DNA of 64,000 nt from Candidatus Kutchimonas denitrificans (GTDB lineage Bacteria > Gemmatimonadota > Gemmatimonadetes > Palauibacterales > KS3-K002). Of the stretch, positions 6,027 to 49,001 are shown piece after piece. The notes below the pieces were generated by a model. It saw nothing but the letters and a program-made list of their open reading frames with translations. It was not told the DNA's origin and did no database searches. Numbering within the stretch: the first letter of the stretch is position 1; the number at the start of each line of letters is the position of its first letter. The stretch spans positions 1-64,000 of the forward strand of contig JAACAK010000036.1 in assembly GCA_011774835.1 (NCBI GenBank). Direction: 5' to 3'. Position numbers and translations under genes: made by a program.

Positions 6027-6051
6027 TTAGCCTCCATCGGGGTAGGCACGG

Positions 6052-6253
6052 GTGAACGTCGAACATCCAACATCCGACATCCAACATCCAGAGGGCTCGG
6101 CGCTGGCGCGTCTCGAATGTTCGAACATCGAAGCACCGAACATCGAACGATGAGCGTCGTCCGCCGCTCGATGTTCGGCGTTCGATCTCTGCGGTTCAAC
6201 GTTCGGCCGTGCCTTCAATGTCGAATGTTCCATGCTGGATGTTCAACGTTCAC
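6052..6253. repeat. ~200-bp imperfect palindromic word-repeat element (family A, GAACATC words)
   Basis: GTGAACGTCGAACATCCAACATCC at left versus reverse complement GTGAACGTTGAACATCCAGCATGG at right; inner 11-bp arms CCGAACATCGA (6136-6146)/TCGATGTTCGG (6168-6178). Confidence 0.85.
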
Positions 6254-6693
6254 TCGCCCGTTCTCGATGCCGGCACGACCTCCACCACATCGCCCACCCG
6301 CACACGGCCCCCGTGTTTCACCCACGCCAGCACGCCACGCCGACCGCGGATCTCCTCCTGCAGGCCGTCGCGGATCTCGTCCATCAGGTCGCACGGGCGG
6401 CAGGGTCCCGTGATCCAGAGCTCGACCTCGGAGCCCAGCCGCAGACGCGTGTCGACCGGAAGGCCGGCCAGGTCGATGCCCCGGGTCGTCACGTTCTCCT
6501 TCACCACGCCCGGCGCCAGACCCAGGGCTTCCAGCGTCTCTTCCTCTAGCAGCAGCACCTGGCGTCGGCTGCCGGCGCGAGCGTGCCGGCACCCTTCGAG
6601 GCCGAGGTCGGCGATGAATCGGGCCGGATCCACAGACCGCATCGGGATGCCGTGCCCCGGACAGATTTGCAATGAGGTGATGCTGCCGGCCAT
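6250..6693 (-). CDS. MOSC domain-containing protein
   Basis: GLEGCRHA, NVTTRGIDL, GPCRPCDLMDEIRDGLQ motifs of MOSC proteins. Confidence 0.85.
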   Translation of the reverse strand: MAGSITSLQICPGHGIPMRSVDPARFIADLGLEGCRHARAGSRRQVLLLEEETLEALGLAPGVVKENVTTRGIDLAGLPVDTRLRLGSEVELWITGPCRPCDLMDEIRDGLQEEIRGRRGVLAWVKHGGRVRVGDVVEVVPASRTGE

Positions 6694-8268: not shown

Positions 8269-8413
8269 GTTGGACGTTGGGCGTTGGACCTTGGACATTC
8301 ACACCTGGGAGCTGGACATCGGAGATCGGGCTGAGGGAAGGTTCAAGTCTCAAGGTGAATTCTCAATGAGAATTTTCCAGTGCTCAACGTCCAGTGTTCA
8401 ATATCCAAGTTCC
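8262..8413. repeat. GTTGGAC word-repeat with inverted counterpart
   Basis: GTTGGACGTTGGGCGTTGGACCTTGGAC on the left; CAACGTCCAGTGTTCAATATCCAAG on the right gives a complementary arm. Confidence 0.6.
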
Positions 8414-11392: not shown

Positions 11393-11482
11393 GAATCGCT
11401 TCATTCATGGGGAATCTCGGGAAGATAGGGAATGGGATTCGGGGATTCGACATTCCCACCCTCCCACCTTCCCTCCCCCATC
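11393..11482. repeat. Family B word-repeat, truncated copy
   Basis: GGGAATCTCGGGAAGATAGGGAATGGGATTCGGGGATTCGACATTCCCACCC; same GGGATTCGGGGATTC words as at 12.1, 45.0 and 48.9 kb. Confidence 0.6.
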
Positions 11483-11987
11483 AAGCCGAAGCGTAGTCTC
11501 CGGCCTTATGCGCCCGAGCGAGCTCGCGGTAGTCGCGGATCGTGCGGGCGATGCGCTGGCGCAGCTCGTCGTCGACGGGGCGTACGACCTTCGCGGGCAC
11601 GCCTATGACGAGGGAGCCAGCGGGCACGCGGGTGCCCTCGGTGATCAGCGCGCCGGCAGCGATGACCGAGCCGGTCTCGATGACGGCGCCGCTGAGAACG
11701 ATGGATCCCATGCCGATGAGGCAGTCGTCTTCGACAACGCAACCGTGGAGGAGGCAGCGGTGGCCGACGCCGACCCGAGCGCCGATGCGGGTGGGCAGTC
11801 CGGGATCGATATGGATGACCGAGGAGTCCTGGATGTTCGTCGCTTCGCCGATGTGGATCGGCTCGATATCGCCACGCACGACAGTGCCGTACCAGATGCT
11901 GGCCTGGCGCTCGACGGTGACGCGACCGATGACGGTGGCGCCCGGCGCGATGAACGCGTCGGGATGAATATCGGGACGGTGAACCAT
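11481..11987 (-). CDS. Gamma carbonic anhydrase family protein (left-handed beta-helix)
   Basis: FIAPGATVIGRVTVERQASIWYGTVVRGD...IGEATNIQDSSVIHID...VGHRCLLHGC...IGMGSIVLSGAVI. Confidence 0.92.
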   Translation of the reverse strand: MVHRPDIHPDAFIAPGATVIGRVTVERQASIWYGTVVRGDIEPIHIGEATNIQDSSVIHIDPGLPTRIGARVGVGHRCLLHGCVVEDDCLIGMGSIVLSGAVIETGSVIAAGALITEGTRVPAGSLVIGVPAKVVRPVDDELRQRIARTIRDYRELARAHKAGDYASA

Positions 11988-12003: not shown

Positions 12004-12280
12004 ACGGTTGGGAATCGCGAAATGGGGATTACTGGGGATTAGAGAGCTCGGGATTCTGATATTGGGAAGATCGAGTTCTCTCCGAATCGTTGAGGTCGAT
12101 TCGGGGATTCGGTGTTTCGGGGATTCGGGGACATAGGATTTCACTCCACTTTGCCGTCCATGCCGATTCCCACCTCCCCGAGCCCCCGAATCCCCGACTC
12201 TCCGAATCCGCTTCGGCAATTCGGGGAGAACTGGAACTTCCCTCAATCAGAATCCCGAAATCCAACTTCCCAACCCACAC
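12004..12280. repeat. Family B element: two inverted copies forming a long imperfect palindrome
   Basis: GGGATTCTGAT..GGGAAG.TC.AGTTCTC(T/C)CCGAAT-N11-ATTCGG on both strands; CCGAAT-N11-ATTCGG hairpins at 12082-12104 and 12202-12224. Confidence 0.85.
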
Positions 12281-12281
12281 T

Positions 12282-15185
12282 CTAGAAGGCCAGGCCGGTG
12301 GCGAGGTAGGGTTCCGGGTCGCCGACCGCGCGGTCGAACGGCTGGGCGTACCCGAAGCGGAAGCGGAAGACCGCGTTGTAGTTGACGGCGAGATCGATGG
12401 AGAGCTCGGCGCCGGCAGAGGCGAGGACGTCGATGGCGTCGGCGTCGAACCAGGCGGAGCCGGCGTCGAGAAAGAAGCTCATCGAGACCCGGTCGAGGAA
12501 GAGGGGCCAGAGGCCGTAGCCGCGCCCGACGAGGAGGAGCGGAAAACGATACTCCAGGCTCGCCGCCGCGATCCGGTCGCCGACCTGCACGTTCTCGGGA
12601 TAGCCGCGGAGTCCGTAAGTCTCGCCGTGACCGATGGCGAGGCCGAAGCCGAGATTCAGCGGCCGCGCCAGCAGTCCTCCGAGCTCGAAGATCTCCGCGC
12701 CGCGGTCGCGGCCGTAGCTGGTCCCGAGGTCGAGGCGACCGGCCAGAACGTGATGGGCGAACCCGAACACGGGAAACGAGATGAAGCCGCGCCAGGCGAG
12801 CTCGGCGGAAGCCTCCCAACGGTCGAAGTCATCGGCCAGCCGCTGGTGCGAGAGCAGGAGCGAGGCGCTCCAGCCGTTCTCCGGGCTCACCGACCGGGGG
12901 TAGCTCCGGGCGGTGGAGAAGCCGATGCCGAGCAGGGCCTCGAGATCGGTGAACGTCGAATCGGTGAGTTGCACGCCGCCCGTCGGCTCGAAGCGCAGAA
13001 ACTGCACGCCGAAGCCGGGTGAAATCCTGAACGAACTCCGCTGCCGCGGGCGCAGGAAGTCCGCGGTGACGATCACGTTTCGCTCACGCTCGACCGTGGT
13101 GAAGAGCGTCCCGTCGGCGGTCCGCAGGTTCTCGTCCCAGCTCTGGATGGCAGTGAGACCGAGGACCGGGTCCCCCAAACCGGCATACCGGTAGGCGGCC
13201 TGCCACTCCACCTTTTCCAGGCCGATACGCCATCCGGCGAACAGCGTGTAGCTGTGTCGCCGGATGTCATCGGTGCCGGTGACGACGGCGCCCAACAGAT
13301 CGCCCTCGAGCCCGTCGCTCAAAGCGAGGAACGGGGTCCAGGCCTTGGGCCACAGCGACGGGAACGGCGAGTAGCCATGGACCTCCCCGCCAGGGGAAGG
13401 CCCGGCTCCAGGCGGCGGCCCCAGCCGTTCCCGGCGCTCCCGCTCTCCCGGCCCCGCTTCCAACCAGGTGGCCGGCTCGAATGACCGGCGCTCGACCCGC
13501 AAACCGTCCGGATAGAGCGCGACGAAAGCCAGCCAACGACCGTCCGGTGACACGGCCGGATCGCTCGCACCCATCGGCGCGCGGGTCACGCGCCAGGCGC
13601 GGGGAGGCGTGCCGCCATCCGCGGCGAGCTCCCGAGCCCACTCGACCGCCAGTATGTCGTACGAGCCGTAGCGATCCGACGCCCACAGCAGGTACCGCCC
13701 ATCCGGTGACCAGGCGGGGGTGATGTCGCCGGCACTGTCCCGGGTGATCCGCCGAACCGTGCAGCCGTCGCGGTCGATCACCACCAGATCCAGGACCGCG
13801 CCCGACTGCCAGCGCTCCGCGGCGATATAGCGACCATCGGGAGACCAGCGGGGGTGCTCCCAGTTGACGTCCGGAACGAACCCGGTGATGGGCCGCAGGG
13901 TCAGGGTCTCCAGATCGAGCTCGACCAGCCGGTTCGTCCCGTTTCCGGTCTGCACGGCGACCAGCGATCCGCCGTCGGGCGCCAGATCGGGGGACGAGAG
14001 ACGGGCGCCCGCGGTGAGCCGCTCTTCATGCCCGCTGGCCAGATCGATGCGGTAGAGGTCGCTGTAGATGGTGTAGCGGTCGACGAACTCCACCTGGCTG
14101 TGGTAGACGGCGGAGCCGTCCGGCGCCCAGCTGACGCCCCCGGGACCGTTACGCCTCCGGCGCAATACCGTGGCGCCGCTGGCCGCATCGACGACCACGA
14201 CCGCCGGGTCGTCGCGGGGGGTGATGGCGCTGAAGGCGATCAGGCGGCCGTCCGGCGCGAAGCGAGGCGCCGACAGGGACCAGGCTTGGCCGCTCAGCGG
14301 TCGGGCGGCCTCCGCATCGTCAGACGTTGCCGCCGCCTCCGCGAGACGGGCCCGCCAGTCGTTCCAGCTCCCGGTCAGGCTCTGGCCGTAGAGCGAGCCG
14401 GAAGCCCAGTTCAGCGTATAGGGGAGTCGCCGGGCGCCCTTCTTCGCCAGCAGGGCCACCACGCTGTCGCCGTGCTCGGCCGCCATAGCGCGCAGGTAGA
14501 GGCCGCCGTAGGCGTAAGGGGTGCTGGCCGCCGGAAACGTGGGCTTGATGCCGTTGGCGGCGTCGACGGGTCGGAGCTCGTCGGCTCGGGCGTCGTTCCG
14601 CACCCAGCTGTTGAACGTACTCCCGTAGGCGCGGCCGACGCCGGTGAGCCGGGATTCGTAATACGTCGCCAGCCCTTCGATCACCCACCGCGGCTGATAG
14701 AAGGCGGGGAAGAAGGTGGGCTGGCGGCCGAACACGAAGCGGCCGATCGACCAGATGCCCGCCGCGCGATCGAGGTGGAAGATGTGGGTGAGCTCGTGGG
14801 CCATCGCCACGTCCACCCAATCGCTCTCGTAATAGTTCAGCTGCCGCGTCGCGATCTGTGGTGCGGCGATGAGCACGATCCGATTGGACGGCAGGGGCGT
14901 GGCCGACGCGTTCGGCCGATCGGTATGGTCGGTGACGACCAGCGCTACCCGGCTCCTTGGCGCCCGAACGAAATGCTCGGCCAGAGTGCCGTAAGCCCAC
15001 TCGGCGCTCGCCGCCGCCCGACGGGCGAACGGCTCCATCCCCTCCGGAAAGACGACCCGGAAGTGCTCGGTCTCGAACTGCAGGTAGCTGGCGTCGGGTG
15101 GTACCTGGGAACGGGCTGTCGTCGCGCCGATGACGAGAAGCGACGCGACAGCCGCCAGCCGCGAGGTGCGGCGCGCCGGGCTCAC
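12282..15185 (-). CDS. Peptidase-MA-like domain + TolB/PD40 propeller + C-terminal outer-membrane beta-barrel
   Basis: Signal peptide; AHELTHIFHLDRA (HExxH); repeated SPDGR.. propeller units; aromatic/Gly-rich barrel C-term ending YLATGLAF. Confidence 0.8.
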   Translation of the reverse strand: MSPARRTSRLAAVASLLVIGATTARSQVPPDASYLQFETEHFRVVFPEGMEPFARRAAASAEWAYGTLAEHFVRAPRSRVALVVTDHTDRPNASATPLPSNRIVLIAAPQIATRQLNYYESDWVDVAMAHELTHIFHLDRAAGIWSIGRFVFGRQPTFFPAFYQPRWVIEGLATYYESRLTGVGRAYGSTFNSWVRNDARADELRPVDAANGIKPTFPAASTPYAYGGLYLRAMAAEHGDSVVALLAKKGARRLPYTLNWASGSLYGQSLTGSWNDWRARLAEAAATSDDAEAARPLSGQAWSLSAPRFAPDGRLIAFSAITPRDDPAVVVVDAASGATVLRRRRNGPGGVSWAPDGSAVYHSQVEFVDRYTIYSDLYRIDLASGHEERLTAGARLSSPDLAPDGGSLVAVQTGNGTNRLVELDLETLTLRPITGFVPDVNWEHPRWSPDGRYIAAERWQSGAVLDLVVIDRDGCTVRRITRDSAGDITPAWSPDGRYLLWASDRYGSYDILAVEWARELAADGGTPPRAWRVTRAPMGASDPAVSPDGRWLAFVALYPDGLRVERRSFEPATWLEAGPGERERRERLGPPPGAGPSPGGEVHGYSPFPSLWPKAWTPFLALSDGLEGDLLGAVVTGTDDIRRHSYTLFAGWRIGLEKVEWQAAYRYAGLGDPVLGLTAIQSWDENLRTADGTLFTTVERERNVIVTADFLRPRQRSSFRISPGFGVQFLRFEPTGGVQLTDSTFTDLEALLGIGFSTARSYPRSVSPENGWSASLLLSHQRLADDFDRWEASAELAWRGFISFPVFGFAHHVLAGRLDLGTSYGRDRGAEIFELGGLLARPLNLGFGLAIGHGETYGLRGYPENVQVGDRIAAASLEYRFPLLLVGRGYGLWPLFLDRVSMSFFLDAGSAWFDADAIDVLASAGAELSIDLAVNYNAVFRFRFGYAQPFDRAVGDPEPYLATGLAF

Positions 15186-39021: not shown

Positions 39022-39180
39022 TTCAGTATGCGCTCTGCGATTCGGTGTGCGGTGTGCCGTGCGTCGGTATGCAGTGGTTGTGCGCCGGTGAACCCCCACC
39101 GCCTACCGGCGCGCCGAACACCGCATACCGAATCCCTCCGCACACTGCACACCGGGTGTCTGTCACTGCGCTCCTCCGCT
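39022..39180. repeat. Family C palindromic word-repeat (CGGTATGCGGTG words)
   Basis: Left CGATTCGGTGTGCGGTGTGCCGTGCGTCGGTATGCAGTG versus reverse complement of right arm GGATTCGGTATGCGGTGTTCGGCGCGCCGGTAGGCGGTG. Confidence 0.75.
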
Positions 39181-44919: not shown

Positions 44920-44945
44920 GCAATCGGAGGTTGGAATCGTCAATC

Positions 44946-45124
44946 ACTGAATCCGGGATTCTGCGGTCGGGATCCTGATTTGGGGAATGTTCAGCTCTCT
45001 CCGAATTGTCCAAGCTGATTCGGGGACTCGGGAATTTGGGATTCCGGGATTCGGGGAGACAGGGAAGTGCAGGCAACTTGCCAAGCAAACCCAGTTCCTT
45101 TTTCCCGGAATCCCCGATTCCCAA
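44946..45124. repeat. Family B palindromic word-repeat element
   Basis: CCGAAT-N11-ATTCGG at 45001-45023 plus CCGGGATTCGGGGAGACAGGGAAG(T/C)GCAGG(C/A)AACTTGCCAAG block at 45044-45085. Confidence 0.85.
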
Positions 45125-45763
45125 CTAGTGAGGGACGAACTTGGCCAGTGTCGACGCCAGATGGACCAGATAGCTGGAGGAGCGGCCCACGACCCGACCT
45201 TGACGGAGGGCGGCCAGGAAGTCTTCCCGGTCGGTGAAGTCGGGCACTTCGATCACCCCGCGACCGATCTCGCGCAGCGTGTGGGCGTCGGACCCGGCGC
45301 CGCCAGGCAGTCCTCGCTCCTCGGCCCAGTCCCGGGCCCGCCGGTTCGCCTCTTCGCGGTGGACGCGGGCGTTGAAGATCTCGATGACATCGACGTGGGT
45401 GGCGATCGCCTCGAGGACCTCGGGGCCGGTCCCCTTGCCGCCGGCGAAGGGGTGAGGGACGTAGACCAGGCCGCCCTGCTCGTGGATCGCCTCGACCGTC
45501 TCCAGCGCCGAGGTGCCCCGGGGGATCTTCTCCGACAGGAAGAGGCCGCTTACGTCAACGCCCTCGGCGGTCTTCACCTCCTCGCCGACGATGACCAAGT
45601 CGGGTGCCAGGTCCCGGACCCGGAGCGCGCCCTCGATCTCGTTGTGGTCGGTGACGGCGATCCGGTCCAGCCCGCGGGCCCGGGCGGTGGTCACCACGTC
45701 GGTGTAACTGCTCAGACAATCGTGGGAGGCACGGGTGTGGATGTGGAGGTCGAGTCGCAGCAC
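45125..45763 (-). CDS. PHP domain metal-dependent phosphoesterase
   Basis: RLDLHIHTRASHDCLSS, AVTDHNEIEG, GSDAHTLREIG. Confidence 0.9.
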   Translation of the reverse strand: MLRLDLHIHTRASHDCLSSYTDVVTTARARGLDRIAVTDHNEIEGALRVRDLAPDLVIVGEEVKTAEGVDVSGLFLSEKIPRGTSALETVEAIHEQGGLVYVPHPFAGGKGTGPEVLEAIATHVDVIEIFNARVHREEANRRARDWAEERGLPGGAGSDAHTLREIGRGVIEVPDFTDREDFLAALRQGRVVGRSSSYLVHLASTLAKFVPH

Positions 45764-48881: not shown

Positions 48882-49001
48882 TGGGATTTGCGGAGTCCGG
48901 GATTCGGCGATTCGGGGAAATGGGGACGGGGTGCGCTTGGCAAGTTTCCTGCGCTTCCCTGTCTCCCCGAATCCCGGAATCTCCGAATCCCATTCCAATC
49001 C
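48882..49001. repeat. Family B palindromic word-repeat element, inverted relative to the 45-kb copy
   Basis: 48936-48977 is the reverse complement of 45044-45085 with 40/42 matches by eye. Confidence 0.85.

Follow-up and report, generated by a model that had tools for sequence, protein, structure and literature searches.

Near 12 kb in the window, the 64,000-nucleotide stretch of Candidatus Kutchimonas denitrificans DNA analysed here, two inverted copies of a CCGAAT-N11-ATTCGG core face each other between two genes, and this raises the question of whether the repeat that carries them is kept for the structure of an RNA or is one copy of an element that has spread through the genome. The sequence-only reading had proposed three copies of such a unit, two at 12 kb and one at 45 kb, and all three were recovered, as arms at 12043-12128 (+), 12178-12263 (-) and 44962-45047 (+). 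The homology that it had outlined around the cores is real, but the unit is larger than was drawn, a single element filling about 12008-12276. The homology of spurious ORFs that it had also cited restates the homology of the DNA and provides nothing independent. The features concerned are as follows.

12008..12276, no strand: complete family-B element without a gene, made up of a loop between two inverted arms (direct sequence reading)
12043..12128, plus strand: left arm of the 12-kb element, an 86-nt unit (covariance model R1, 99.7 bits, E 1.7e-23)
12082..12104, plus strand: CCGAAT-N11-ATTCGG core of the left arm (sequence reading, core pattern search)
12129..12177, no strand: loop separating the arms, with copy-specific sequence (comparison of loops)
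12178..12263, minus strand: right arm of the 12-kb element, an inverted copy of the 86-nt unit (covariance model R1, 99.0 bits, E 2.6e-23)
12202..12224, minus strand: CCGAAT-N11-ATTCGG core of the right arm (sequence reading, core pattern search)
44936..45124, no strand: second family-B element (inverted arms 45030-45049 / 45103-45122)
44962..45047, plus strand: arm of the 45-kb element (covariance model R1, 77.4 bits, E 9.3e-18)
48882..48992, no strand: array-only relative with inverted GGGATTCGG..GATTCGGGGAA arms and no hairpin core

The element at 12 kb occupies the whole gap between the minus-strand ORFs 11481-11987 and 12282-15185, with 5 nt separating its right edge from a stop codon (12282-12284), and inverted-repeat analysis describes it as a near-complete inverted repeat (12048-12138 / 12168-12258) whose left arm follows the pattern GGAGGTCGGGATTCTGATTT..GGGAAG.TCGAGTTCTCTCCGAAT-N11-ATTCGG(GGATTCGG)n. 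The second element immediately adjoins a stop codon (45125-45127) at its right edge, and its right half has shrunk to a GATTCGGG-type array that lacks the core; the array at 48882-48992 is 84% complementary to this 45-kb array.

Genome-wide copy counts were derived from searches. A covariance model of the 86-position arm, built from aligned copies, identified 71 arms in the 3.76-Mb genome (assembly 86.6% complete), most with E <1e-14, and gave no match in the eight relatives searched. The search that the sequence-only reading had suggested thus bears out a dispersed 86-nt unit with long flanking homology, and further copies, the lack of which was to count against it, bring the total to 71 arms. 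The core pattern TCTCYCCGAAT-N(9-13)-ATTCGG gave 33 exact matches in the genome, against none for the reversed control pattern. No exact core was found in 39 relatives or in collections of genome contigs and viral contigs, from which this genome and its near relatives are possibly absent, and, as far as sampled, the family-B arms are confined to the Ca. Kutchimonas denitrificans genome. The 71 arms group into 46 clusters, 21 with a single arm and 25 with two, and in every one of the 25 pairs the arms converge (plus, then minus), with no divergent or same-direction pair. The starts of paired arms are 115-142 nt apart; the two exceptions are the gene-bearing pair, at 503 nt, and a weak pair whose arms overlap. 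A complete element measures about 270 bp and consists of two inverted arms flanking a loop, mostly of about 30-55 nt as measured between model ends, whose sequence varies from copy to copy. Reading inward, each arm runs GGGAAT.., GGAGGTCGGGATTCTGATTT.GGGAAG.TCGAGT, TCTCTCCGAAT-TGTCGAAGCGG-ATTCGG, a few GGATTCGG units and then GGAGGTGGGAAGTG or GGAAAGACGAAGTG; its inner part is an 8-nt tandem array, and a 60-nt non-tandem part that includes the core is conserved in the 71 dispersed copies. A facing stop codon lies within 40 nt at 49 of 92 cluster sides, compared with 16 of 240 control sides (ORFs of at least 120 codons).

The two types of inner arm end, GGAGGTGGGAAGTG and GGAAAGACGAAGTG, are seen at family-B loops such as L188, L189 and L205. 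The former resembles a Shine-Dalgarno sequence followed by a GTG start, and an element often has one end of each type, as if these were relics of a gene start and a gene end.

The sequence-only reading had seen in the constant 11-nt spacer of differing sequence a sign of selection for structure. The length is indeed constant (33 of 33 matches, though the pattern permitted 9-13), but the sequence is not free, several positions being at least 87% conserved in the arm consensus. The 12-kb element folds into one long hairpin of -136.4 kcal/mol, against -84.6 +/- 4.7 for shuffled sequences (z = -11), in which each core pairs with the opposite arm and not with itself; such a fold is what any inverted repeat would give. 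Among 71 distinct arms there is no base pair of the 9-bp core hairpin that is altered on both sides, and pairing stands at 93.6%, compared with 93.3% when partners are shuffled. Furthermore, the two arms within one element resemble each other no more closely than arms taken from different elements do (0.766 versus 0.744, permutation p = 0.59), so that there is no compensation in the long stem either. Given that compensatory changes are found neither in the hairpin nor between arms, an RNA structure under selection was rejected, and this part of the earlier reading is not supported. The arms fit a conserved sequence, serving as a unit of recognition or of copying, and not conserved base pairing.

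The key fact lies outside the window, where an IVP gene stands between the arms of one copy. This pair (C123:141777/142280) is 503 nt apart and encloses an intact gene with profile matches to PF05635 and TIGR02436, the 23S-rRNA-intervening-sequence protein (IVP); it is the only gene between the arms, its start directly abutting the inner edge of one arm and its stop the opposite arm. IVP is a four-helix bundle related to Avd, with a homologous fold (PMC10053308). The relatives of known structure that were matched, PDB 2GSC and 2RLD, are four-helix bundles, and 2GSC (Xcc0516) is, by its title as cited in PMC3936711, an assembly of five of them.

Six IVP (PF05635) genes are present in the genome, one of them interrupted by an internal stop, and every one is flanked by inverted short-unit arms; there are six different repeats, one per gene, the five further genes each lying between arms of a repeat other than family B. 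The arm family F32, that of IVP gene L032, has 44 arms in the genome against none for the control, and exactly one of its 12 close convergent pairs brackets L032. Gene-less copies of at least two IVP arm families occur genome-wide, and copies related to the F32, F35 and F36 arms are present in the window. The gene with the internal stop, L031, contains a TGA and is apparently broken.

Several of these relatives can be placed within the window. Positions 29-80 and 39023-39145 are gene-less F32 copies built of GCGGTATGCGGTGCGTCGGT units, 6049-6256 is a long palindrome of CATCGAACATCCAACAT-type units that matches the arms of IVP gene L036, and 8337-8410 is a short-unit repeat that matches an arm of IVP gene L035 and has a terminator-like GC hairpin behind it.

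The same layout is found at IVP loci of many phyla. Loci drawn from relatives, and others obtained by scanning species genomes, include Proteobacteria, Bacteroidota, Planctomycetota, Chloroflexota, CPR, Clostridia, Methanophagales archaea and others, and the occurrence of the gene is scattered (11 of 60 relatives' genomes). Inverted repeats with z > 5 flank 60% of the 101 testable IVP genes and none of 329 same-size control intervals within the same loci (Fisher 1e-45), the median score being 18 at IVP genes and 10 at controls. A tandem period of 7, 14 or 8 is present in 82 of 213 IVP flanks compared with 5 of 220 control flanks, the units being mostly of 7-8 nt. Arms were not detectable at about 40% of the loci; however, Xanthomonas vasicola L063 scored low in the first flank test despite GGGAATC arms that are plain by eye, and the 60% is therefore probably a lower bound. 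The IVP gene of X. vasicola and of Rhodanobacter is placed, with GGGAATC-type arms, between accB and accC (identified from flanking sequence, not annotation), and that of a Nostoc edaphicum plasmid has GGGAGTA arms and nrd genes on either side. When GGGAATC was searched as a strict palindromic pattern, X. vasicola yielded two inverted pairs and Rhodanobacter yielded none, a pattern too strict for counting copies; the Xanthomonas copy numbers given below are those of PMC4692102. Rfam searches returned no known RNA family at the 12-kb element or elsewhere in the window and no match in 16 IVP loci, and this candidate was rejected.

Three of the loci (L063, L064 and L065) carry an Xcc0516-type IVP gene, flanked by inverted GGGAATC-type arms, between accB and accC, a position conserved in Xanthomonadaceae. 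On cyanobacterial plasmids (L144, L145) Calothrix and Nostoc share one gene order: a tyrosine recombinase gene, the IVP gene and then two hypothetical genes. Inverted TCAGTTN-type units, the reverse complement of TAACTGA-like heptamers, stand beside the IVP genes of L104 and L108.

Comparison of two sister species (G001, a single-contig genome that also carries IVP elements, and G006) indicates that gene-bearing and gene-less copies alike differ in presence. At L060, an IVP gene with arms, matched flanks are separated by 685 bp in one species and 82 bp in the other, and at the gene-less L238 by 159 bp and 59 bp; each of these differences may reflect either insertion or loss. The two genomes are only about 77-85% identical, so that no clean junction or target-site duplication can be read. 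Loci may also share nothing beyond the element: L051 resembles L050 and L055 over the gene and arms alone, and two IVP loci of G054 have gene and arms in common and no flank beyond them. Elsewhere in G001 the L051 arm is matched many more times, and several of these matches form inverted pairs. The gene itself is under purifying selection (dN/dS about 0.15-0.22), and similarity of arms tracks similarity of proteins (Mantel rho 0.33, p 0.001). Two IVP loci occupy the same position in both sister species, which, together with the conserved accB-accC copy of Xanthomonadaceae, suggests that movement is slow.

Taken together, it is probable that the family-B repeats are non-autonomous copies, lacking the gene, of a small mobile element whose autonomous form is an IVP gene between inverted arms of 7-8-nt units. 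The mobility, and the part of the protein in it, are inferred. The IVP protein would recognise arms belonging to its own family, in the form of either DNA or RNA, and would let them be copied to new sites both in cis and in trans, the gene-less copies included. We know of no catalytic site in IVP, so that replication or repair enzymes of the host would have to supply the chemistry. Elements may lie just behind stop codons because they are tolerated there or because they insert at the 3' ends of mRNAs, and once inserted the long hairpin may serve as a terminator or 3' stabiliser. Two points weigh against such an element: the copy-specific loops of gene-less elements are not explained by plain copying of whole elements, and a four-helix bundle without known catalytic site is an unusual agent of mobility.

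Given the stop codons close to about half of the cluster sides and the very stable fold at 12 kb, it could be argued that these are hairpins owned by the host, terminators or 3' stabilisers of mRNA multiplied for their usefulness, with the IVP gene a chance passenger in one loop. This is unlikely: neither the hairpin nor the arms of one element covary, and a random passenger would not give each IVP gene its own matching arm family, nor the repetition of this pattern in many phyla. A different objection takes IVP for a host or defence factor that binds dispersed repeats as a regulon, neither gene nor repeat moving. While purifying selection on the gene, and its place in some operons of fixed content or in cas loci (PMC3936711), would be expected of such a factor, its scattered presence in relatives and the presence or absence of elements at orthologous sites would not, and we regard this as very unlikely.

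A REPIN-RAYT type system would have an equal layout, that is, inverted palindromic pairs between genes and a single gene flanked by those repeats, and its transposase gene could lie in the part of this genome that is not assembled. However, a search with PF01797 (Y1_Tnp) found none in the assembled 86.6%, the arm consensus has no GTAG or CGTC tag and the gene that the arms do flank encodes IVP, which makes this reading highly improbable. The most improbable of the readings weighed here dispenses with an element altogether and derives the repeats from decaying simple sequence, GATTCGGG-type arrays having arisen by slippage and become palindromic via template switching. The 8-nt array of the inner arm and the lack of special likeness between the arms of one element are in keeping with it, but slippage does not account for the conserved 60-nt non-tandem part and core, for every close pair being convergent or for orthologous sites without the element.

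The IVP element inferred here resembles several known systems. Its ORF and inverted ends make family B a variant of the intervening sequences of rRNA, and in layout it works like REPIN-RAYT without the transposase; it was assigned to neither because a feature that defines each was looked for and not found. Intervening sequences of 23S rRNA with an S23/IVP ORF are described from Leptospira and Coxiella (Ralph and McClelland 1993; PMC4990558). Like the C123 copy they have an IVP-family ORF between terminal inverted repeats, and they share the few-hundred-base length, the sporadic spread and the existence of copies without the ORF. Their transcript is cut out by RNase III. The copies checked here, in contrast, are intergenic and not within rRNA, as judged by Rfam in the window and 16 IVP loci, and have arms of short family-specific units and tens of gene-less copies per genome. 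REPINs and their RAYT (TnpA_REP; PMC3116915, PMC2817692) likewise consist of inverted palindromic units that enclose, in pairs, a variable middle part and are placed between genes, and of one gene flanked by such units. They differ in their Y1 (HUH) transposase, the flanked gene here encoding a four-helix bundle, and in the GTAG or CGTC tag at the hairpin foot of RAYT-type REPs (PMC3733652). Identity with RAYT-type REPs was rejected, no Y1 transposase having been found in the assembled 86.6% of the genome. MITEs, too, are short and gene-less and share terminal inverted repeats with a gene-bearing parent, as is the case here, but the parent of family B carries only the IVP gene and no transposase, and no target-site duplication was recognised at sister-species junctions that are too diverged for it.

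Avd works together with a reverse transcriptase in diversity-generating retroelements. IVP has a homologous fold (PMC10053308), and the L032 protein matches PF22296 (bAvd) with a score below cut-off. No reverse transcriptase (PF00078) was found in either this genome (G000) or G001, however, and a retroelement partner for IVP was rejected.

A further likeness is to short repeats for which no source has been named. The GGGNATC heptamers of Xanthomonas and Nostoc are G-rich and intergenic, lie close behind the upstream ORF and often form convergent pairs, 70-75 of them in Xanthomonas; their description mentions neither the IVP family nor any general link to mobile elements (Rehm 2015, PMC4692102). 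Family B shares with these G4 repeats the layout of tandem, G-rich short intergenic units in convergent pairs, whereas its unit is mostly of 8 nt (GATTCGGG) and is joined to a 60-nt core-bearing part. The arms at the IVP genes of X. vasicola, Rhodanobacter and Nostoc belong to the kinds of repeat described by Rehm et al. The TAACTGA repeats of Beggiatoaceae are also 7-nt intergenic units of unexplained origin, though mostly direct repeats; a repeat-binding protein was considered for them as a possible mobile element and no protein was named (MacGregor 2015, PMC4679880). The TCAGTTN units of L104 and L108 offer a lead to their origin. No description of a link between IVP and repeats was found in the portion of the openly accessible IVP-family literature covered.

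This raises the possibility, which we hold to be evenly balanced, that IVP genes with inverted short-repeat arms form a widespread class of prokaryotic mobile elements, the gene-less copies of which are the source of many unexplained 7-8-nt repeats (GGGAATC in Xanthomonas, the heptamers of Nostoc, TAACTGA and others). The evidence ties the IVP/S23 protein, a puzzle since 1993, to heptamer repeats of Xanthomonas, cyanobacteria and Beggiatoaceae that have had no agreed origin. If this is true, IVP genes in odd places would be insertions and not parts of the systems in which they lie, be it between cmr3 and cmr2 of a cas locus, as reported in PMC3936711, between accB and accC of Xanthomonadaceae or among the nrd genes of a Nostoc plasmid.
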